A DNA stretch of 64,000 nucleotides from an uncultured Actinomycetes bacterium (GTDB lineage Bacteria > Actinomycetota > Acidimicrobiia > Acidimicrobiales > RAAP-2): NCBI GenBank assembly GCA_903924205.1, contig CAIYAP010000007.1, positions 124,001 through 188,000 on the forward strand, in the 5' to 3' direction. The notes beneath the pieces are model-generated. The model saw only the letters and a program-made list of their open reading frames with translations, was not told where the DNA came from and searched no databases. The position numbers and the translations under genes were made by a program. The first letter of the stretch is position 1. The number at the start of each line of letters is the position of its first letter. Positions 33,922 through 49,739 of the stretch are shown here, piece by piece.

Positions 33922-34946
33922 AGAGCGAGTGCTCGGCGCAGTTCGGCCACTGCCGCCGCCGCGGAGAAATGAACGGTAACCGCCGCCTGCATGTCGGTGA
34001 GGCGACGACGCCACGCGTCGTCATCGAGAGATGTCCACCACGAGATTTCCCGAGCCATGCCCGTGAGATCTCCTTCGTCAACCGTGGCTGAGCCAATGGT
34101 GCTACTCACCCACGGAATCTCGCCGGTCGCGTACGCCACCACCGGTCGTCCCGCATACACCGCCTCCACAATGACTCGGCCAAACTGCTCGGTCCAGGTG
34201 GGCGTCGTTCGACTGGGAACGATCACGATGGACACGGAATCGTAGAAATCGCCCATTTGCGCTGCCGTCAGCGGCCCGCAGCATTCGATATTGGCCACGG
34301 CGGCTAGGTCGCTCGCGCGCTCTCCGTCGCCGGCAACGCGAAAGAGCCACTCGGGATGTTGCCTCGCTAATTCAATAACGTCCTCAATGCCCTTGGCGGA
34401 CACCAGACGGCCGACGAAACCCACCACCAGCCGTGCTGGTCGCGGCGCTTGTCGAGGGCTCCCCTCGACGCCGTGCACCACGAGTGCGCGGTCGCCAGTG
34501 AACCCCCACTCGCGGACTCGGTCGAGGGCGGCCGGGGAACGTCCAATGACGAGCTGTGCGTCTCGAAGAACTTTTCGTCGAAGTTGGCGCGCCACGCGCG
34601 GCAAGGGTCGATTCATGTTTTCCGCCGCCTGCACCGCGTACGGCACATGACGACGACGGGCCCAGCGGGAAAATCGCCACGCCGAGAGCGAGAAGGATTC
34701 TTCCTCAATGACGAGAAAATCGGGTCGCGAACGCGGAATTCGTAACGGGAGGTAGCGCTGCGGACGACCCACACCCCACACCGGCAGGGGCCGTATGAAC
34801 TCCGAGGGCTCGACCCGATAGTCGCGATACGAATCGGTCCACGTTGACGGTATCCAAAAGGACACGGAAAAACTCAAGGCTTCGTAGGGGGCACGGTTGC
34901 CCGCGACTACTGCCGCGTGGGACGCCACGACCAAACGCTTCTCCAT
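33918..34946 (-). CDS. GT4-type glycosyltransferase
   Basis: A 342-residue GT-B protein starting MEKRLVVASHAAVVAGNRAP. An in-frame extension upstream is ignored because it would overlap the divergent flippase promoter and shows no family similarity. The C-domain begins PARLVVGFVGRLVSAKGIEDV and has the donor-site region QFGRVIVEAVYAGRPVVAY with the E-x7-E spacing loosely kept. The N-domain has VIGRSPAALDRVREWG, a usual GT4 linker. It would add one sugar to the lipid-linked repeat. Donor and acceptor cannot be read from sequence. It is a single-gene unit divergent from wzx with 52 bases between starts. Confidence 0.8.
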   Translation of the reverse strand: MEKRLVVASHAAVVAGNRAPYEALSFSVSFWIPSTWTDSYRDYRVEPSEFIRPLPVWGVGRPQRYLPLRIPRSRPDFLVIEEESFSLSAWRFSRWARRRHVPYAVQAAENMNRPLPRVARQLRRKVLRDAQLVIGRSPAALDRVREWGFTGDRALVVHGVEGSPRQAPRPARLVVGFVGRLVSAKGIEDVIELARQHPEWLFRVAGDGERASDLAAVANIECCGPLTAAQMGDFYDSVSIVIVPSRTTPTWTEQFGRVIVEAVYAGRPVVAYATGEIPWVSSTIGSATVDEGDLTGMAREISWWTSLDDDAWRRRLTDMQAAVTVHFSAAAAVAELRRALAL

Positions 34947-41743: not shown

Positions 41744-42813
41744 CGCGATACCAACTGTTCGAAGAGTGCCAAATACGCCGAGCGCATAGCGCCTCGGTCG
41801 AATTGCTGGGCTACGTGTCGCGCCCGTTGCGACATGTCGTGCCACGCATCCTTCTCACCCACGATTGACCACGCGCGCACGAGATCACGCGCATCACGGG
41901 TGACGAAAACTCCGGCCCCCGCCTCAACGAAATCACCAGCGACTCCCGTATCGGTGGCGACCACGACGCATCCCTGGGCGGCGCCCTCCACCATGGTCAA
42001 TCCGAAAGACTCGTATCCGCTCAGCGACATCACCACGTCATGCTCGTGATAGGGAATCTCGTCTACCGGCAGGGGGCCGAGAAACGTGATCCGCTCAGCA
42101 ACTCCCCGTCGCTGCGCCGACTCCCTCGCGGCATTGATGTCACCCGACCCCACCACCGTCACGGTGACCTGGTGGGTGAGCGCGAGTGCCTCAATGGCGA
42201 GAGGCACGCCCTTTGCCAAGAAATCATGGGTCACGATGATGCAGCGCAACGGACCGTCGCCACGTTCGCGGCGCACGCGAGACAGGTGCAGGTCGATGCC
42301 ATTATTTATGACCAACGACGGCTGTTGGTACTCGTGCTCAAGTTGGATGCGAACAGCGCGCGAGACGGCGACGAGTCTCCCCGCACCGTGTCCTATCTGA
42401 CGACGCTCCAAGCGCAGGGCTGCCGCACGAGCCCACCGTGCCGCCAGGGTTGCGCTATGCGCGCCACGCTGAGCAGCGGCGTGGCAGAGATGGACCGTGG
42501 TCACATCGCTGCGCACCGTCGTGACCGCACCATTCGAATACACGAGTTGGGATTGCCGACGTGCGCGAAAACTCAAAAACGGCGCCAACAGGCGATAGAG
42601 CCAGATGCGAGCGACGGCTGGCCGACGCGGAAGAGGCACCCTCACCGCCCGCACGCCCTCGGGGAGCTGCTGGCGGCTGTCCCCACTCACGATGGTGATC
42701 TCGAAAGATTCCTGGAGAAAGACCATGAGATCTCGACCAATCAACTCCATCCCGCCACGATTGGTAGCCACCGAATGGGTGAGATACACCATTCGAGGTC
42801 GAGAACTACCCAC
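41740..42813 (-). CDS. GT4-type glycosyltransferase
   Basis: A 357-residue GT-B protein with MVYLTHSVATNRGGMELIGRD at the N-domain, RCIIVTHDFLAKGVPLAIEALA in the C-domain and SGYESFGLTMVEGAAQGCVV at the donor site. The start is uncertain: GTG 42813 overlaps the polymerase stop by 8 bases, and ATG at 42790-42792 gives a tidier N-terminus of 350 residues. It is the second gene of the wzy operon and overlaps the tandem GT4 gene by 4 bases. Confidence 0.8.
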   Translation of the reverse strand: MGSSRPRMVYLTHSVATNRGGMELIGRDLMVFLQESFEITIVSGDSRQQLPEGVRAVRVPLPRRPAVARIWLYRLLAPFLSFRARRQSQLVYSNGAVTTVRSDVTTVHLCHAAAQRGAHSATLAARWARAAALRLERRQIGHGAGRLVAVSRAVRIQLEHEYQQPSLVINNGIDLHLSRVRRERGDGPLRCIIVTHDFLAKGVPLAIEALALTHQVTVTVVGSGDINAARESAQRRGVAERITFLGPLPVDEIPYHEHDVVMSLSGYESFGLTMVEGAAQGCVVVATDTGVAGDFVEAGAGVFVTRDARDLVRAWSIVGEKDAWHDMSQRARHVAQQFDRGAMRSAYLALFEQLVSR

Positions 42814-44320
42814 GGACGCTTCGTCGCGCTTCCCCTGGCTTTCGCCAGACGTACGGCGTCACGGCGGCAACCGGTGACACCGTCGCCGCGTCACCCACGT
42901 CGTCTTGCAGCGAGTCCGCCGCACCCAACACGAGCCACACCAGCCAACACACGGCATAGAGGTCGCCGTTAAACCACTGAAACGAGGTGGCCAGCAAAAT
43001 GCCAATCGGAACCAGTCCGAGAAGATCATTGCGCCCGACGGCGAATCGGTACACCGACCTCAACGCCAAGGCGCCGAGGATGAAGTACAAGATTTCTCCG
43101 AGCAGCCCATAGGCGACGCCCATGTTGCCGGGGTCGAACTCCGTTCCGTGCGAGCCGCTATTCGCGGTGTAGCGACCGGCCGCCAGAGTCACCGAACCCG
43201 TCCCGCGACCCAAGGGGTGAGTCACGCCGAGTCCCATGCCGTGCCAGGTGGCGTGAAGGTGTCCGGGTAACGACGACCCCGCTCCGGTGGGGTCAGTGAT
43301 ACCCGAGAGTTGGTGGCTGATAAGAACGCCACCCGTTCCCGATCCACTTGAGCCCCCGAAAAATCCCGCCGCGCCAATAAGAACGCCAATGCCCGCCACG
43401 CCCGCCAGCACGATCCACACCGGTCTCATTTTGAAGCGAGTTGCCGCCATGGCTCCCAGGGCGAGGGCCGCGAGGAACACGGAGGTGCGCTGCGATTCAT
43501 AGAACAAGGTGACGGCCACGGTGATGGTGCATGCGAGGTGAAGCGGCCACACCAATCTCGTCGCTTTTCCCGCGAGCGCCACCCACGCCACCAGGCCAAC
43601 AGAGAGGAAGGCGGCATACTCCTGCGCACTGGAAAAAGTTCCAAAAGCTCGCACCACGCCCGATCCCAAATTCAATGCCGTATAGCCCTTGGACTCAATC
43701 CACGCTTGGTCCCACGACGGGAAATGACGAAACTGTTGATAGAGGCCGTACAGAGCGGCACCCAAAGAGCTGATCGCCACGATCCACGTCACTCGCCACA
43801 AGAGATCGGTCGTCATATGGCGTTGCGCCACCCAAAAAGTTGCCGTCGGGATGAGCATGAAGAGGAGCCCACCGAGGCCGGTCATCAGAGAGCCCTGCGC
43901 CGGATTGAAGGCCTCAACAAGCGCCAAAATGTTGAGGGCAAGAACTGCTCGAGCCAAGGGCGTGAGACGTAATTTTCCGCTCTGATACGCCGCGAAGACC
44001 ATGATCAAAATTGCTATTGGACCCACCAAAATCACGGGGTCGCCCGAAAAGGTGATGTTTCCGCCGCCAGGGGTGAATCGGCGAACAAAGCCCAAGAGCA
44101 CCATCCACACGGGCAGCAGGGACATCATGGCCACTGGATTCGACCAGGCCACGGCAATGGCCAACGGAATAATCACGATGGCGAGAATCAGGTGTGAACC
44201 CGCCACCAACGACACCGCCACGGAGCCGACGGCACCGACCGACACATAGAACCACGCCGAACGTCCGCCCAACTCGCCGGCCGACCCGATCGTCGTCGGA
44301 CTACCGCTCGTCGTCGTCAT
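42806..44320 (-). CDS. Wzy/WaaL-type O-antigen polymerase or ligase
   Basis: A 504-residue protein with about 12 membrane segments and a large extracytoplasmic loop before the last segments (roughly 330-400, with GLGVTHPLGRGTGSVTLA). This shape and the motif GRGTG with following histidines and glycines fit the Wzy_C / O-antigen ligase family. In this locus it most likely polymerises repeat units flipped by Wzx. It heads a four-gene operon with three GT genes. The start has CAGAAT 6 bases upstream and no Shine-Dalgarno; the same hexamer precedes wzx. Confidence 0.82.
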   Translation of the reverse strand: MTTTSGSPTTIGSAGELGGRSAWFYVSVGAVGSVAVSLVAGSHLILAIVIIPLAIAVAWSNPVAMMSLLPVWMVLLGFVRRFTPGGGNITFSGDPVILVGPIAILIMVFAAYQSGKLRLTPLARAVLALNILALVEAFNPAQGSLMTGLGGLLFMLIPTATFWVAQRHMTTDLLWRVTWIVAISSLGAALYGLYQQFRHFPSWDQAWIESKGYTALNLGSGVVRAFGTFSSAQEYAAFLSVGLVAWVALAGKATRLVWPLHLACTITVAVTLFYESQRTSVFLAALALGAMAATRFKMRPVWIVLAGVAGIGVLIGAAGFFGGSSGSGTGGVLISHQLSGITDPTGAGSSLPGHLHATWHGMGLGVTHPLGRGTGSVTLAAGRYTANSGSHGTEFDPGNMGVAYGLLGEILYFILGALALRSVYRFAVGRNDLLGLVPIGILLATSFQWFNGDLYAVCWLVWLVLGAADSLQDDVGDAATVSPVAAVTPYVWRKPGEARRSVRG

Positions 44321-44397: not shown

Positions 44398-46164
44398 ATG
44401 GCTGAAGCGAACGCGATTCGTCGCACCCCGGCGGAATATCTCAGCATTGTCTGGCGACGCCGAGTGCTCGTCCTTATTGTCACTCTGAGCTCCCTCGCGA
44501 TAATGATCGGTATCGACTCAGTACGCACGCCGGTCTACTCCTCGACTGCCAAAGTCTCCTTCGGCGGGAAGGTCACCAGCGCCTCGGTCATTTCCGGGAA
44601 CATCATCCGTCTAGGGTCGGCCGCCGCTCACGCGGAGGCATACAAACTGCTCGGCCAAGCTCTGCCTCCGATCACCTTGCGTCAAGAAGGTTCGACGGCG
44701 GTCGTCGACATCACCTGCACCGCAAGTTCGGCCAGCTTGGCCAGCCGAGGAGCCAATGCCCTGGCCGACGGTTACAACGCCATGATTCGCGCCCAAACTG
44801 TCACGAACGCGCTGAGCACGCTCCAGTTCCTGCAGACCTCCGTCGGTACGACGAATACTCAAATCGCCGGGTTGAATCAAGCGATAGCCAAGGCGGGCAA
44901 GCACAGCGTGTTGGGTCAGATCTACGCCAAGTCTCTGCAATCGGCCTACCAGCACCTTCAGAATTTGAACCAGCAAATGCTGTTCGTTAACTCGGTCATC
45001 GTCAATCCTCCGAATGCCCTGGCCGTTCTTGCCTACTCGTACCCCAACAACATCCCCCTCTCACCCAAGCCCACCACCGATGCCCTGTTGGCTTTCCTCG
45101 TCGGCATCTTGCTGGCTGTCGGCATCGCCGTGCTGCAAGAGTCGCTGGATGACCGACTGCGCAACCGTGCCGAGCTGGAGCATCTAGCGGGCGGACGTCC
45201 GGCGATTGGGATCATCCCGACCATTCGTGAATGGGAAGACCGAAAAACTCCGCTGCTGATCACGGCCGAACAGCCTCGCGGTCGGGCGGCCGAAGCGTTC
45301 CGCACCTTGCGCACCTCTCTACAATTCATGTCACTGGATGACCCCATCAAGACGCTGCTGATCAGCTCGCCATCGGCCGCAGACGGTAAGACCACCGTCT
45401 CGTCCAACTTGGCCTTCACCATTGCGGCATCGGGCCAAGAAGTGATCATCGTGGGTCTCGACCTCCGCAAACCTCGAATTCACGAATTTTTCGGAGTATC
45501 AAACGACGTCGGCATCACATCCGTCCTCCTCGGTGAAGTCGACTTGGATTCGGCCATCGTCAACGTTCCAGGTAGTGCGTACCTACGCATCCTTCCCGCC
45601 GGCCCCGTTCCGCCGAATCCCGCCGAACTTCTCAGTGGTCGGCGAGCGCAGCAGTTAATTGAACAGCTGAAGGCGCGCTGCGACCTGGTTATTTTGGACT
45701 CCCCGCCGCTGCTACCCGTGTCGGACTCGCAGGTCCTCGCCGCGAATGCCGATGCCATCGTGCTCGTCGCCGCCGCGGGCATCTCTAAGCGCCGAGACAT
45801 TGAGCGTTCTGTCGAGCTTCTCCGCCAAGTCGATGCCGCACTGGTCGGCGTCATCTTGAATCGCGCACCGGCGTCGGATGGCTATGGCCGTGGCAAATAC
45901 GGCTACGGGTACGGCTACGGCTATGGCTATGGCTACGGGTATGGCTACGGATACGGATACGGCTCTGGCAGCTACGGTCGATCGCCCTACGGATCTGGCG
46001 GCGGCCTGCCCGTTCCCGAGAATCTGCCCATGGGTGGCGGCGTCGCGGTCGATGAATCCGCCCGCACGTCAGGAGTGCCGTCGAATCCCTTTGGTGCGGG
46101 CGTGAGCGACATTATCGATGTCAGCGCGACTCGCATGGAAGATGATCCTCACGGCGACGCGTAG
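44398..46164 (+). CDS. Wzc-like polysaccharide co-polymerase with BY-kinase domain and Tyr-Gly repeat tail
   Basis: A 588-residue protein. The N-terminal Wzz domain is bounded by membrane segments near 22-40 and 230-248. The cytoplasmic tyrosine autokinase has Walker A SSPSAADGKTTVSSN (about 323), Walker A' VIIVGLDLRKPR (about 350) and Walker B LVILDSPPLLPVSD (about 431). The tail at residues 496-530 holds eleven consecutive Tyr-Gly pairs (45898-45963) plus further YG units, the expected tyrosine cluster of such kinases in an extreme form. It controls polymer length and export with the phosphatase at 48091. A start at 44398 fits the family; longer open sequence upstream does not. DUF4012 follows by 2 bases. 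Confidence 0.92.
   Translation: MAEANAIRRTPAEYLSIVWRRRVLVLIVTLSSLAIMIGIDSVRTPVYSSTAKVSFGGKVTSASVISGNIIRLGSAAAHAEAYKLLGQALPPITLRQEGSTAVVDITCTASSASLASRGANALADGYNAMIRAQTVTNALSTLQFLQTSVGTTNTQIAGLNQAIAKAGKHSVLGQIYAKSLQSAYQHLQNLNQQMLFVNSVIVNPPNALAVLAYSYPNNIPLSPKPTTDALLAFLVGILLAVGIAVLQESLDDRLRNRAELEHLAGGRPAIGIIPTIREWEDRKTPLLITAEQPRGRAAEAFRTLRTSLQFMSLDDPIKTLLISSPSAADGKTTVSSNLAFTIAASGQEVIIVGLDLRKPRIHEFFGVSNDVGITSVLLGEVDLDSAIVNVPGSAYLRILPAGPVPPNPAELLSGRRAQQLIEQLKARCDLVILDSPPLLPVSDSQVLAANADAIVLVAAAGISKRRDIERSVELLRQVDAALVGVILNRAPASDGYGRGKYGYGYGYGYGYGYGYGYGYGYGSGSYGRSPYGSGGGLPVPENLPMGGGVAVDESARTSGVPSNPFGAGVSDIIDVSATRMEDDPHGDA
45898..45963 (+). repeat. Tyr-Gly codon repeat (11 units)
   Basis: Eleven in-frame TAY-GGN units in a row inside the BY-kinase tail. 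Third positions vary (ggc, ggg, gga; tac, tat), so the protein repeat is conserved better than an exact DNA repeat would be. This argues for selection on the peptide rather than recent slippage, though slippage could have started it. Confidence 0.9.
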
Positions 46165-46166
46165 CC

Positions 46167-48113
46167 GTGTCCAAGTACTACCGACACCGCCACAGTCACC
46201 GGCTGCACCTTCTTCGTCATGGCTCGAAGCACTTCTTTCAGCACCGCCGTGGCGAGCGCCACAAACACTCACGGCGAGATACCGCACGTATCGAACCCAA
46301 GGTGTCGGCGTGGATGACCGTACCCGCGCGAGTCTGGCCAAAAGAGATTGTCAAGCAAATTCTCCTCGGCACCGCGGTGGCCCTCACAGCGCTCGTGACC
46401 TGGGCGGCCATTGATGCCTACCTGATCCTGGCGCACGCGCGCAGCGAGGTACGTACCATCGTGAGTTCGGGCGTCTCGATTTTGGATCACTCGCGCTCTT
46501 TGACGGACAGCCAAAGCCGTGCCAAGACCTTGCAGCAACTCTCCGTCATCGAGGCATCGGCCTACAACATCGATAATCGCCTCAGCGGCTCAGCCGCCTT
46601 GAGTGTCCTGTCATGGATTCCCGTCGTCGGCACCCAGGTGTCGGCCGTGCGCCAAACGGCTGGCGACTTTGACGTTCTCTGCCAGCAAGCCACCGATGTC
46701 GTGTCGAATATCTCGCAAGCGGCGAACTCCACCTTCGGTAATCACGTGAACATTCCTTCACTGGCCAACCTCAACGAACAGCTGGGAGTCACGCACAAGG
46801 CTCTCTCGACGATGCACACGTCCACGGCGGGCCTCATTGGCCCGGTGCGTAGCATGCGCGAGCAGTTTGCCTTGATGGAAGGCCGTATCGCGGGCCTCGT
46901 TGGTAACGGTCACCGGGCGCTCACTTTCGCTCTCGATTTCTTCGGCGGCAATGGTCCTCGACGGTACTTTGTCGCCGGTCTCAACAGCGCCGAAATGCGT
47001 GACCAGGGCGCCGTCCTGTCATGGTCGCTCATGGATTCCAACCAAGGAACTTTCCATACCTCAGCGTCCGCGTCAGTCGGAACCCTCACCTTGACGCATC
47101 CGGCCGCCAGCCTGTCCGGCAACACGGCTGCCGTCTTCGGTCCGTACTACCCCACGCGAATTTGGCAATCGGTGAATGCCATCGCCAATTTCCCGACATC
47201 CGCGACGTGGATGACGCAGATGTACGCCCAAGCCCGCCATCAGCACGTGGACGGCGTCGTCGCACTCGATACTCAGGCGTTGCGCAGCCTGCTCGAGGTC
47301 ACCGGTCCCATCTACGTTCCGGCCGTTCACAGCTTCGTGGGGTCAGGAAATGTGGAGTCACTGTTGCTGCACGATCTCTACGTTCGTTTCCCTGCGGGGG
47401 CCGACCAGCAACTGCGCCACGCCGACGTCTCCGCGGTGGCCAGTGCCGTCATTGAGCGACTCTCTCAGGGTGGCTACGACCCCGCTCGTTTGATCTTCCA
47501 GCTCGCCAACACCATTCCCGGCCGACACCTCATGCTGTGGGACGCTCGCCCAACTTTGCAGCGTGCCATCGAGCACTTTGGCGCATCTGGCGAATTGAAC
47601 GTCGGTACGCATTCGACCGTTCACGTCTCGCTTCAGTCGGGTGTGGCGGCGAAGCTGGACTGGTTCGTGCACAGCAGCGACCACATCACTATCCAGATTT
47701 CGAATAACACGGCCTACATTACGTCATCTCTCACGATTACAAATAGCGCCCCGCTCCACGGACACCCGAGCTACGCCCTCGGGCCCGACAACGTGGCCAC
47801 GCACACCGTGGGCCAATATGTCGGGCGCATCTACCAATGGTGGCCGAGCCTCAGCCAATCTCCGGGTGCCGTCAGCGAAGAGGGCTTATCACTGCTGCGC
47901 AACATTGTCCGCGTGAACCCACAGCACAGTTCCACCGTGGTGAGTCAGCTCGTTATCCCGCACATCTTTGATCACGGGCCATTCACCTTGTCGTTCGTAC
48001 CGCAGGGGCGAATCCACCCCATGCACTACGTCGTCACCGCCACCGGCGCGTCCGGGCCATCAGCGAGCGCGTGGTACGACACGCACCGCGTCAGTTTGAC
48101 GTGGACCAAGTAG
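46167..48113 (+). CDS. DUF4012 membrane protein with His/Arg-rich N-terminus
   Basis: A 648-residue protein. Residues 1-38 are cytoplasmic and extremely rich in His (9) and Arg (10 or so). One membrane span follows (about 66-86, LLGTAVALTALVTWAAIDAYL), then a long outside region. It contains the DUF4012 landmarks: FALDFFGGNGPRRYFVAGLNSAEMRDQGAVLS and later SLLEVTGPIYVP and PAGADQQLRHADVSAV. The family is common in Actinobacteria beside polysaccharide genes and has no established function. The GTG start at 46167 is 2 bases after the BY-kinase stop. Its stop overlaps the phosphatase gene by 23 bases. Confidence 0.82.
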   Translation: MSKYYRHRHSHRLHLLRHGSKHFFQHRRGERHKHSRRDTARIEPKVSAWMTVPARVWPKEIVKQILLGTAVALTALVTWAAIDAYLILAHARSEVRTIVSSGVSILDHSRSLTDSQSRAKTLQQLSVIEASAYNIDNRLSGSAALSVLSWIPVVGTQVSAVRQTAGDFDVLCQQATDVVSNISQAANSTFGNHVNIPSLANLNEQLGVTHKALSTMHTSTAGLIGPVRSMREQFALMEGRIAGLVGNGHRALTFALDFFGGNGPRRYFVAGLNSAEMRDQGAVLSWSLMDSNQGTFHTSASASVGTLTLTHPAASLSGNTAAVFGPYYPTRIWQSVNAIANFPTSATWMTQMYAQARHQHVDGVVALDTQALRSLLEVTGPIYVPAVHSFVGSGNVESLLLHDLYVRFPAGADQQLRHADVSAVASAVIERLSQGGYDPARLIFQLANTIPGRHLMLWDARPTLQRAIEHFGASGELNVGTHSTVHVSLQSGVAAKLDWFVHSSDHITIQISNNTAYITSSLTITNSAPLHGHPSYALGPDNVATHTVGQYVGRIYQWWPSLSQSPGAVSEEGLSLLRNIVRVNPQHSSTVVSQLVIPHIFDHGPFTLSFVPQGRIHPMHYVVTATGASGPSASAWYDTHRVSLTWTK

Positions 48114-48630
48114 CTAACACCGGCCCGAGAGTTTGCACCAGTCGGCGAAGTTCCACCGCCATTTTCGCGTAGCTCTCGGGTGTTCCCGACAGTCCCGGAT
48201 CAGCAATGTCATCGAGGGCCGATTCGGTCAGCAAATCTGATGCTCGACGGCCATGGTGGGCGCGGTGCATAATTTCCGACCCCACGCTGTCAAAAGGTGA
48301 CTCCATCACCGCGCGTGCGAATTCTTTAACCGTAAACGAGCGTGGCCACCGAGTGGACCTTTCCACCACCATGTCGCGCAGAACCTCACGATCAGCCGCG
48401 AGCAGTAAGTCCGCGTCATCGGCACCCACGTCATCGAGGCGCTGACCCGTCATCACGGGAAGCGGCACATTCATCGCAAGGTATTGCGCGCGTAGCGCCT
48501 CGGGAATCTCCACTGCCACCGGCCTCATTCCCGCACTGGCGACATCAATCCCCGGTTGAGAAGTGGTCAGCAGGGCTGCCAGCAAAGGGCTACGGCACAC
48601 ATTTGCCGAACAGACGAATATGACCTTCAC
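48091..48630 (-). CDS. Low-molecular-weight protein tyrosine phosphatase (Wzb-like)
   Basis: A 179-residue LMW-PTP. The P-loop CSANVCRS gives C-x5-R at Cys7-Arg13. The C-terminal acid loop reads DIADPGLSGTPESY, with Asp-Pro kept but Gly in place of the usual Tyr or Phe. It should dephosphorylate the Tyr-Gly tail of the BY-kinase two genes away. GTG 48630 is chosen because it makes a GTGA overlap with the GT gene upstream and gives the standard N-terminus; a longer frame exists but reads into that gene. It is last in the methyltransferase-GT-phosphatase operon. Confidence 0.85.
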   Translation of the reverse strand: MKVIFVCSANVCRSPLLAALLTTSQPGIDVASAGMRPVAVEIPEALRAQYLAMNVPLPVMTGQRLDDVGADDADLLLAADREVLRDMVVERSTRWPRSFTVKEFARAVMESPFDSVGSEIMHRAHHGRRASDLLTESALDDIADPGLSGTPESYAKMAVELRRLVQTLGPVLATWSTSN

Positions 48631-49739
48631 TGTCGCACCCGTGCTTTCTCCCCGATCGCTGACTGGTAGTTCGATTCGAGCAAGGTGACCACTCGGTCGG
48701 GGGTGAAGCGCCGACTGGCGAGATGTGCGGCGGCGCCCCACAGGGCACGCCGAGACGGCGCTGCGAGTTCTCGCAACGCCACCACGACCGCGTCCACGTC
48801 GCCGACGGGAACCAAAATTCCCGCCTCCCCCACGATGTCTCTCGGACCCGCGATGTCGGTGGCCACGATAGAGAGTCCGTGACTCGCCGCTTCCAGCACG
48901 GTCAGTCCGAAACCTTCAAAACGGCTGAGATGGAGAAGAACCGAATGTTGCTGATAGAGCGACACCATGTCCTCGCCACTCACCGACGACAACGTCGTCA
49001 CTCGAGACGCAAGTCTGGCGTCAAGGGACTCCAGGTCACGCGGATTGGCTCCGAGCCAGGTGATGCGTAGTTCGGGGTAATCCTGAATCACGCGCGCCAG
49101 CGCGGCCAGCGCGTCGCGACTGCCCTTGCGCCACTCGAGACCACCGGTCACGAGCACCGCAAACTCGATGGTGGTATCGGCCTCACCATGGTTGAACGAC
49201 CGACCGGCGAGCGGCGCGGTGCGAAAGACGTGATCTGGCGGCACGTCAGCATGTCCGCACACCCACGAACTCTCCTCATCGTTGAGGACGGCCACCGCAT
49301 CAGCGACCTGCAGTGACCGGCGCACCTCGGAGAGTCGCCAGCCTGCATGGTATAGACCGTACCGACGTCGAAGGACGAGTTCCCCTCGCTGCGCACCCGC
49401 TCGGCGCGCCGCGACTCCCAAGGCCTCAAGGCCGTGCGATCGAGTAACCAGCACGGTTCGCCAGGACGAGACTTCGCGACGCGTCAACCGTGCGGCATCA
49501 CCCGTGCTGGCATCGATGAGGTCGTAGCGACCCTCACGCTCTGCTCGCCGCATCCAACGGGCAACGGCGGAGGGAAATCGAAGTGCCGTCAATCGAGCGG
49601 GTCCGCGACCCACGATCTCGGTGCCCACGACGTCCACCTGGTGCCCGCGCGAACGCAGACCCTCGGCGAGTGTCAAGGTGGAGCCGGCTGCCCCAGTCGC
49701 GCCAACAAGCTCGTGGTGGACGACGAGGGCAATCCGCAC
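48627..49739 (-). CDS. GT4-type glycosyltransferase
   Basis: A 370-residue GT-B protein. It begins MRIALVVHHELVGATGAAGS with the glycine-rich acceptor loop, has AVLVTGGLEWRKGSRDALAAL at the C-domain start and SRFEGFGLTVLEAASHGLSI at the donor site. Sugar specificity cannot be read. It is one base from the methyltransferase gene and overlaps the phosphatase start by 4 bases. Confidence 0.82.
   Translation of the reverse strand: MRIALVVHHELVGATGAAGSTLTLAEGLRSRGHQVDVVGTEIVGRGPARLTALRFPSAVARWMRRAEREGRYDLIDASTGDAARLTRREVSSWRTVLVTRSHGLEALGVAARRAGAQRGELVLRRRYGLYHAGWRLSEVRRSLQVADAVAVLNDEESSWVCGHADVPPDHVFRTAPLAGRSFNHGEADTTIEFAVLVTGGLEWRKGSRDALAALARVIQDYPELRITWLGANPRDLESLDARLASRVTTLSSVSGEDMVSLYQQHSVLLHLSRFEGFGLTVLEAASHGLSIVATDIAGPRDIVGEAGILVPVGDVDAVVVALRELAAPSRRALWGAAAHLASRRFTPDRVVTLLESNYQSAIGEKARVRQ

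Follow-up and report, generated by a model that had tools for sequence, protein, structure and literature searches.

Capsule biology has yet to explain how phosphorylation of a disordered tail sets the length of the polysaccharide. The closest described kinase is Wzc of E. coli, for which an account of tail phosphorylation is given in PMC11986026, with an earlier structure in PMC8285477. According to these sources, phosphorylation proceeds from the C-terminus inwards. One tyrosine occupies a neighbouring subunit's active site and the tyrosine two residues before it (i-2) sits in a pocket; the authors call this YxY arrangement a ratchet and term YxY highly conserved in BY-kinases (PMC11986026). 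Placing a tyrosine at position 711, which fills the gap in the YxY pattern, is reported to have restored tail order. The same paper states that the Wzc ring disassembles after four phosphorylations, and that function depends on the extent of phosphorylation, not on individual tyrosines (PMC11986026). Another regular tail is that of CpsD from Streptococcus pneumoniae: a (YGX)4 repeat, named in the title of Morona 2003 as cited in PMC4574921 and PMC7485978. The kinase described here belongs beside these two systems, and its tail carries an unusually long and regular repeat.

The window is a stretch of 64,000 nucleotides from an uncultured actinomycete of the class Acidimicrobiia (assembly GCA_903924205.1, contig CAIYAP010000007.1, positions 124,001 to 188,000). 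Its forward strand holds an open reading frame (44398..46164) that translates to 588 amino acids and encodes a BY-kinase: a Wzc-like polysaccharide co-polymerase with a kinase domain. That identity, first proposed in a sequence-only reading of the window, holds up on three counts. The chain matches NCBIfam TIGR01007 (polysaccharide biosynthesis tyrosine autokinase) at 5e-48, scoring 163.3 bits where the cut-off is 108.05. PDB sequence matches are to Etk, Wzc and CapAB. The predicted model (mean pLDDT 76.7, pTM 0.49) resembles Wzc along its full length, the best TM by query length being 0.66, with E. coli Wzc chains as the top structural matches, and the kinase domain matches CapAB at a TM of 0.89–0.96 by target length. 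Two hydrophobic helices, recognized by hydropathy and present as helices in the predicted model, are the putative transmembrane segments (residues 22–42, 44461..44523, and residues 225–250, 45070..45147, both on the forward strand); they bound a presumed extracytoplasmic part. The Pfam Wzz model scores 24.6 bits on this chain, below its cut-off of 25.5.

The motifs of the family are largely in place, all on the forward strand. The EX2RX2R oligomerization motif (E299, R302 and R305; 45292..45312), described in PMC3795738, is widely kept in an alignment of 153 kinases: E in 148, the first R in 145 and the second in 146. Walker A (GKT, residues 323–333; 45364..45396) has its lysine, K331 here, in 152/153 kinases, and the aspartate of Walker B (VILDSPP, residues 431–437; 45688..45708), here D434, is universal (153/153). 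Walker A' (IIVGLDLR, residues 350–357; 45445..45468) departs from DXDXR, the published BY-kinase signature (PMC5260027): Gly353 stands at the first Asp, with Asp355 and Arg357 kept. Among the sampled kinases, that first position is D in 54/153 (otherwise Gly, Ser, Glu, Cys or Asn) and the second D is found in 152/153. Because the first Asp is so often absent, Gly353 alone is no argument for a dead kinase, and for this phylum DXDXR looks too narrow a signature. The kinase probably controls polysaccharide export.

The C-terminal cluster is rich in tyrosine. Fourteen tyrosines lie 3' of Walker B, and 11 of them stand in perfect period 2. Residues 501–522 read (YG)11 without interruption (45898..45963, forward strand) and are presumed to form the phosphoacceptor tail. 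Translation confirms both the eleven consecutive Tyr-Gly pairs seen in the sequence-only reading and the further YG units that it placed on either side, which are single pairs. One lies ahead of the array (Y496 G497, 45883..45888, forward strand), with Y496 invariant in a four-way alignment (A1), and two more (Y526 and Y531) lie in the stretch past it (45973..45993, forward strand). Across all six frames of the window, the array is the sole YG run of at least three units. Tandem Repeats Finder reports it with period 6, 11.2 copies and 83% matches, the top score among the window's 22 rows. Units that match at 83% imply varied codons: TAC and TAT for Tyr, and GGC, GGG and GGA for Gly, joined by GGT among relatives. 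The tail from residue 497 to residue 588 is predicted to be disordered (pLDDT <50).

The array is a conserved property of a restricted group. Among 99 genomes of the genus, ten carry a close orthologue of the kinase (54–100% identity, the window's own counted), and four more have a distant homologue alone. Comparing tail length and regularity among orthologues, as the sequence-only reading had suggested, shows the array kept in all ten, with 11, 11, 10, 9, 9, 9, 9, 9, 9 and 7 units; in a single nine-unit array, a Glu stands in for one Tyr. Across the wider family, arrays in this kinase run from 4 to 13 units, mostly with YYR just before. A tree was built from 175 loci with a kinase match, reduced to 153 rows by collapsing 22 identical kinase domains (L002 and L038 had no kinase match). 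In this tree, made by a quick method with SH-aLRT as its one measure of support, the query and 19 other rows group together in a supported clade (SH-aLRT 96). All 20 have at least four YG units (4–13, one with a Glu interruption), down to an identity of approximately 44%, and their sequence beyond the array is far more variable than the array itself. The class and family loci were picked by similarity to the query, and some tails (L130, L006) are truncated or absent. Gly replaces the first Asp of Walker A' throughout the clade. Unit number is loosely held: close sisters have 9 versus 4.

Outside the clade, eight other tree rows have YG runs of at least four. On the tree this state requires eight changes, at least four of them forced by well-supported branches. 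Actinobacterial BY-kinases of the same family share the repeat, for example in L055 (YG)9, L162 (YG)6, and L148 and L172 (both (YG)5). Their YG tails are probably separate gains, to judge from the tree; all but that of L055 are clearly shorter than most in the clade. Among 70 kinases sampled from the phylum's other classes, the longest YG run is 0 in 31, 1 in 33, 2 in three, 5 in two and 6 in one, and no run of at least seven occurs. These 70 loci comprise the 30 best matches and 40 from other rows, among the matches listed, and were taken before their tails were viewed. Rows of the window's own class, at least three of them clade members (G000, G106 and G118), were left out, so the sample describes the background of the phylum and not that of the class. 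With runs of at least four in 20/20 clade members, reaching 4–13 units, versus 3/70 of these kinases, the array is more than a chance occurrence. Among plasmids, 800 records matched; none reached 80% query coverage, and every identity was below 60%.

Several relatives are of interest in their own right. L040 and L084, probably one genome with identical kinase domain and tail, carry a natural Glu in place of Tyr in unit five, a candidate phosphomimic halfway along the track; the L040 array is scored as nine units and its longest unbroken run is four. The closely related kinases L048 and L049 have 9 versus 4 units between nearly identical flanks, and offer a natural pair for the effect of unit number. 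Two genomes of the genus (G006 and G118) each encode a second, distant BY-kinase, and the tail of the G006 copy (L027) is different and not YG.

Codon usage within the array separates the history of the peptide from that of the DNA. The window's kinase and a relative of 97% identity both have 11 units, and 9/22 codons differ, all silently. Fourfold sites differ in 5/11 cases within the array and, at a similar rate, in 53/111 cases elsewhere in the kinase region. For this pair the array shows neither faster nor slower synonymous change than the remaining gene, and the other five pairs are mixed. Over all six aligned species pairs, which share members, a single array residue of 122 differs (Tyr to Glu), and 63 of the 121 same-residue codons differ silently. 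The array was defined here as a YG run with EG allowed, so that changes at its edges shorten it and go uncounted. The suggestion that varied codons beneath a conserved, regular peptide reflect selection for the peptide is borne out by these counts. The sequence-only reading had also named the opposite outcome, identical DNA repeats left by recent slippage, as evidence against it. Neighbouring six-base units are in fact identical in 36/160 cases over 18 arrays, compared with 37.7 (sd 4.8) after codon shuffling, and no excess is seen. Recent slippage was rejected as the main origin of the array: adjacent units resemble each other no more than codon shuffling would give, and the peptide barely changes across species. 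Codon positions are weakly preserved between species. In nine species pairs of equal array length, which again share members, one has P<0.05 (L059/L005, P=0.021) and three differ in codon position more than most of their shuffles do (P 0.94–0.95), which is no clear sign that each unit was inherited in place. Since codon positions are weakly preserved and unit number ranges from 4 to 13, units may have been gained and lost long ago.

Regular tyrosine spacing extends beyond the clade and beyond glycine. Known BY-kinases had been described in the sequence-only reading as bearing loose clusters of a few tyrosines. This was too strong, given the (YGX)4 repeat of CpsD, the shorter YG runs elsewhere on the tree and the presence of Tyr-x-Tyr in 63 of the 70 tails sampled from the phylum's other classes. 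Period-2 tyrosine runs of at least four number 40 in 133 non-clade tails versus 13.4 (sd 3.1) in shuffled tails, and 27 in the 119 non-clade tails with at most two YG versus 11.4 (sd 2.8), in shuffle tests that ignore relatedness and that score runs of adjacent tyrosines as period 2 also. Period-1 runs show no excess in the 133 tails (12 versus 16.7). Period-3 runs show no clear excess either: 8 versus 6.3 (sd 2.1) in the 133 tails and 8 versus 5.1 (sd 2.0) in the 119. In the sample of 70 tails, spacing 2 alone clearly stands out (161 versus 132.6, sd 6.0); spacing 4 is marginal (P 0.04) and spacing 1 falls under chance (123 versus 146.8). The middle residue of 314 YxY triplets is most often Gly (120), followed by Tyr (53), Arg (30), Ala (25), Ser (23), Thr (14) and others, Lys among them. 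A less Gly-bound form of the same pattern is visible in L027, L133, L134, L136 and L128, which have period-2 tyrosine runs with varied middle residues (e.g. YTYGYAYKYRY). Because period-2 tyrosines are in excess irrespective of the middle residue and periods 1 and 3 are not, these data favour a role for the two-residue step. Recurrence of period 2, and not of Gly alone, in the sampled actinobacterial kinases offers independent sequence support for the ratchet far from E. coli.

The neighbouring genes place the kinase in a recurrent module. Two bases after its stop codon begins a gene for a DUF4012 protein (46167..48113, forward strand; PF13196, 4.5e-25), probably in the same operon. It adjoins the kinase in 16/16 clade loci (L039–L054), and its product looks to be a kinase partner. 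A DUF4012 gene lies beside wzz in an EPS cluster of Bifidobacterium longum, according to PMC5412050. On the other side is a reverse-strand gene (42806..44320) for a protein in the place of the Wzy polymerase, a label given by position and reading, with a homologue beside the kinase in 16/16 clade loci. Homologues of both genes thus flank the kinase in every one of these loci. The Wzy-like gene and a Wzx-like gene at 34897 have no Pfam match, and their labels are by reading. Convergent to the DUF4012 gene lies a gene for a low-molecular-weight (LMW) protein-tyrosine phosphatase (48091..48741, reverse strand; PF01451, 1.1e-5, 26.1 bits versus a cut-off of 23.2). Its CX5R motif is CSANVCR and an Asp-Pro pair lies near the C-terminus; the start codon is uncertain, and the frame overlaps the upstream gene.

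A dedicated LMW phosphatase close to the kinase had been proposed, and the comparative evidence agrees. The gene is approximately 1.9 kb from the kinase. It follows the DUF4012 gene in 13/16 clade loci, and the remaining three stretches end within DUF4012. Its orthologue occurs in 9/99 genomes of the genus, every one among the ten with the close kinase orthologue; two of the nine matches (G118 and G360) cross in-frame stops. The genome carries three other PF01451 loci, and on linkage and co-occurrence this phosphatase looks dedicated to the kinase. In L055–L058, non-clade members of the same 20-locus set, none of the window's neighbours was found. A more distant relative, L184 (39–42% identity), has kinase, DUF4012 and phosphatase genes in the same order and the tail SDSYVYYGYSGQYGYGG, with (YG)2 only. 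Three further relatives with short YG runs, on stretches of 13–15 kb each, have the phosphatase in 0/3 cases; the DUF4012 gene of L186 is in another orientation, and L185 and L187 are without DUF4012. The sequence-only reading had held that orthologues with the same locus and no YG repeat would count against it. L184 goes half way: the module of kinase, DUF4012 and phosphatase is kept, yet (YG)2 remains. Since L184 combines this module with (YG)2 only, the long array is an elaboration of the module within one clade and not something that the module requires.

Taken with the Wzc model, these observations suggest the following reading, which we hold to be probable. The protein, a BY-kinase made as one chain, would work together with a polysaccharide polymerase, and (YG)11 would be its autophosphorylation tail, serving as an extended, register-free ratchet track. 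(i) As in Wzc, one array tyrosine would occupy the active site of the subunit next to it, with the tyrosine two residues earlier in the pocket. (ii) Upon phosphorylation the tail would slide by two residues, and the next tyrosine would enter. (iii) With tyrosine at every second residue, every register would be productive, so that roughly a dozen unbroken steps could occur before the ring falls apart. (iv) The linked LMW phosphatase would then reset the tail. Phosphorylation of the array, its passage through the neighbour's active site, disassembly of the ring and an effect on polymer length are what we infer by analogy with Wzc. This reading draws on the BY-kinase motifs, the predicted fold, the clade-wide array, the period-2 excess, the repeated YG state changes, and the linkage and co-occurrence of the phosphatase. 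Against it stand Gly353, the (YG)2 tail of the L184 module, the sisters with 9 versus 4 units and an acidic pocket residue that is not general. In our mapping from a PDB sequence alignment, the Wzc pocket positions correspond to P325–A327, P437–L439, D467 and S471, and the acidic residue E675 of Wzc is D467 here. At the E675-equivalent position, the five commonest letters among 28 kinases with at least four YG units are D (14), N (6), Q (4), A (2) and E (1). The sub-clade with 11–13 units has Asn there, so the selection by charge put forward for Wzc might not apply to every member. As the Wzc ring comes apart after four phosphorylations, many tyrosines of the array might never be used. A more specific version, which we advance tentatively, is that the ratchet of this clade is a register-free timer over 9–13 equivalent positions: the number of YG units would set the lifetime of the kinase ring, and with it that of the polymerase complex, and the Tyr-to-Glu change of L040/L084 would be a built-in block. 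If so, evolution could tune polymer length through unit number, with a setting for each species. The multi-site phosphorylation counter suggested in the sequence-only reading would likewise fit the data.

The register-free track has to be weighed against simpler accounts of the same tail. The most serious holds that it is an ordinary multi-site tyrosine cluster in which more sites bring more charge, the period is irrelevant, and YG is a cheap way of adding tyrosine to a flexible chain. Wzc function is reported to track the extent of phosphorylation and not single tyrosines (PMC11986026), array length in the clade ranges from 4 to 13, and residues 497–588 are predicted to be disordered, all of which such a cluster would accommodate. 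It does not account for the excess of period 2 in other tails even without Gly between the tyrosines, when neither period 1 nor period 3 is clearly over-represented, and we give it perhaps a minor share of the probability. Disorder, together with an array of pure Tyr and Gly, also suits a low-complexity sticker, in which stacked tyrosines would bring kinases or polymerase complexes together and phosphorylation would disperse them. Other lineages, however, have period-2 tyrosines separated by R, A, S, T or K; the pattern is not driven by Gly, although Gly is the commonest middle residue (120/314). It is the tyrosine period, rather than Gly, that recurs, which makes the sticker less favoured; at 22 residues the array is in our judgement also short for such a purpose, and we regard this account as improbable.

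Slippage without function would make the array a microsatellite-like sequence tolerated at a free C-terminus. The DNA period of 6 and the spread of 4–13 units among relatives are what it would produce, and the weakly preserved codon positions (1/9 pairs at P<0.05, 3/9 at P 0.94–0.95) would allow for an old turnover of units. It fits poorly with one residue difference in 122 beside 63 silent codon differences in 121, and with the lack of excess identity between neighbouring units. Nor would it lead one to expect an array kept in 20/20 members down to approximately 44% identity ahead of sequence that is far more variable. We consider functionless slippage very improbable, slightly less likely than the sticker. 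The register-free track remains the reading that we favour.

Regular Tyr-Gly tails are already known in kind, the (YGX)4 of CpsD being an example on the evidence of citing papers, and YxY is known in BY-kinases. For a gap-free period-2 track of 9–13 units conserved throughout a clade, no precedent was found in the open-access literature (PMC) that was searched, and 'YGYGYG' in a bacterial tyrosine kinase gave no match in the same open-access literature. A natural tail with tyrosine at every second residue and about a dozen equivalent registers would be a near-ideal substrate for testing the Wzc ratchet. CpsD resembles the present kinase in having a regular Tyr-Gly repeat in an autophosphorylating tail, as far as the cited title and citing papers describe it. 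Its repeat has period 3 and, by name, four units, whereas the array here has period 2 and eleven. CpsD relies on a separate membrane adaptor, CpsC (PMC4574921), and the kinase here is one chain; the phosphatase on the CpsD side is of the PHP type, as stated for Gram-positives in PMC11986026, and the linked enzyme here is of the LMW type. The likeness to Wzc (E. coli K30, PCP-2a) is closer. Both are single chains with two transmembrane helices (putative here), an extracytoplasmic part (presumed here), a kinase domain and a tyrosine-rich C-terminal tail with YxY. Wzc has the phosphatase partner Wzb (PMC11986026), and the present kinase has its linked LMW phosphatase. Unlike Wzc, it has Gly at the first Asp of Walker A' and an adjoining DUF4012 gene. 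The tails themselves differ most plainly: that of Wzc is described with five phosphorylated tyrosines (708, 713, 715, 717 and 718) and a gap in the YxY pattern (PMC11986026), whereas the tail here has 14 tyrosines, 11 of them free of gaps.
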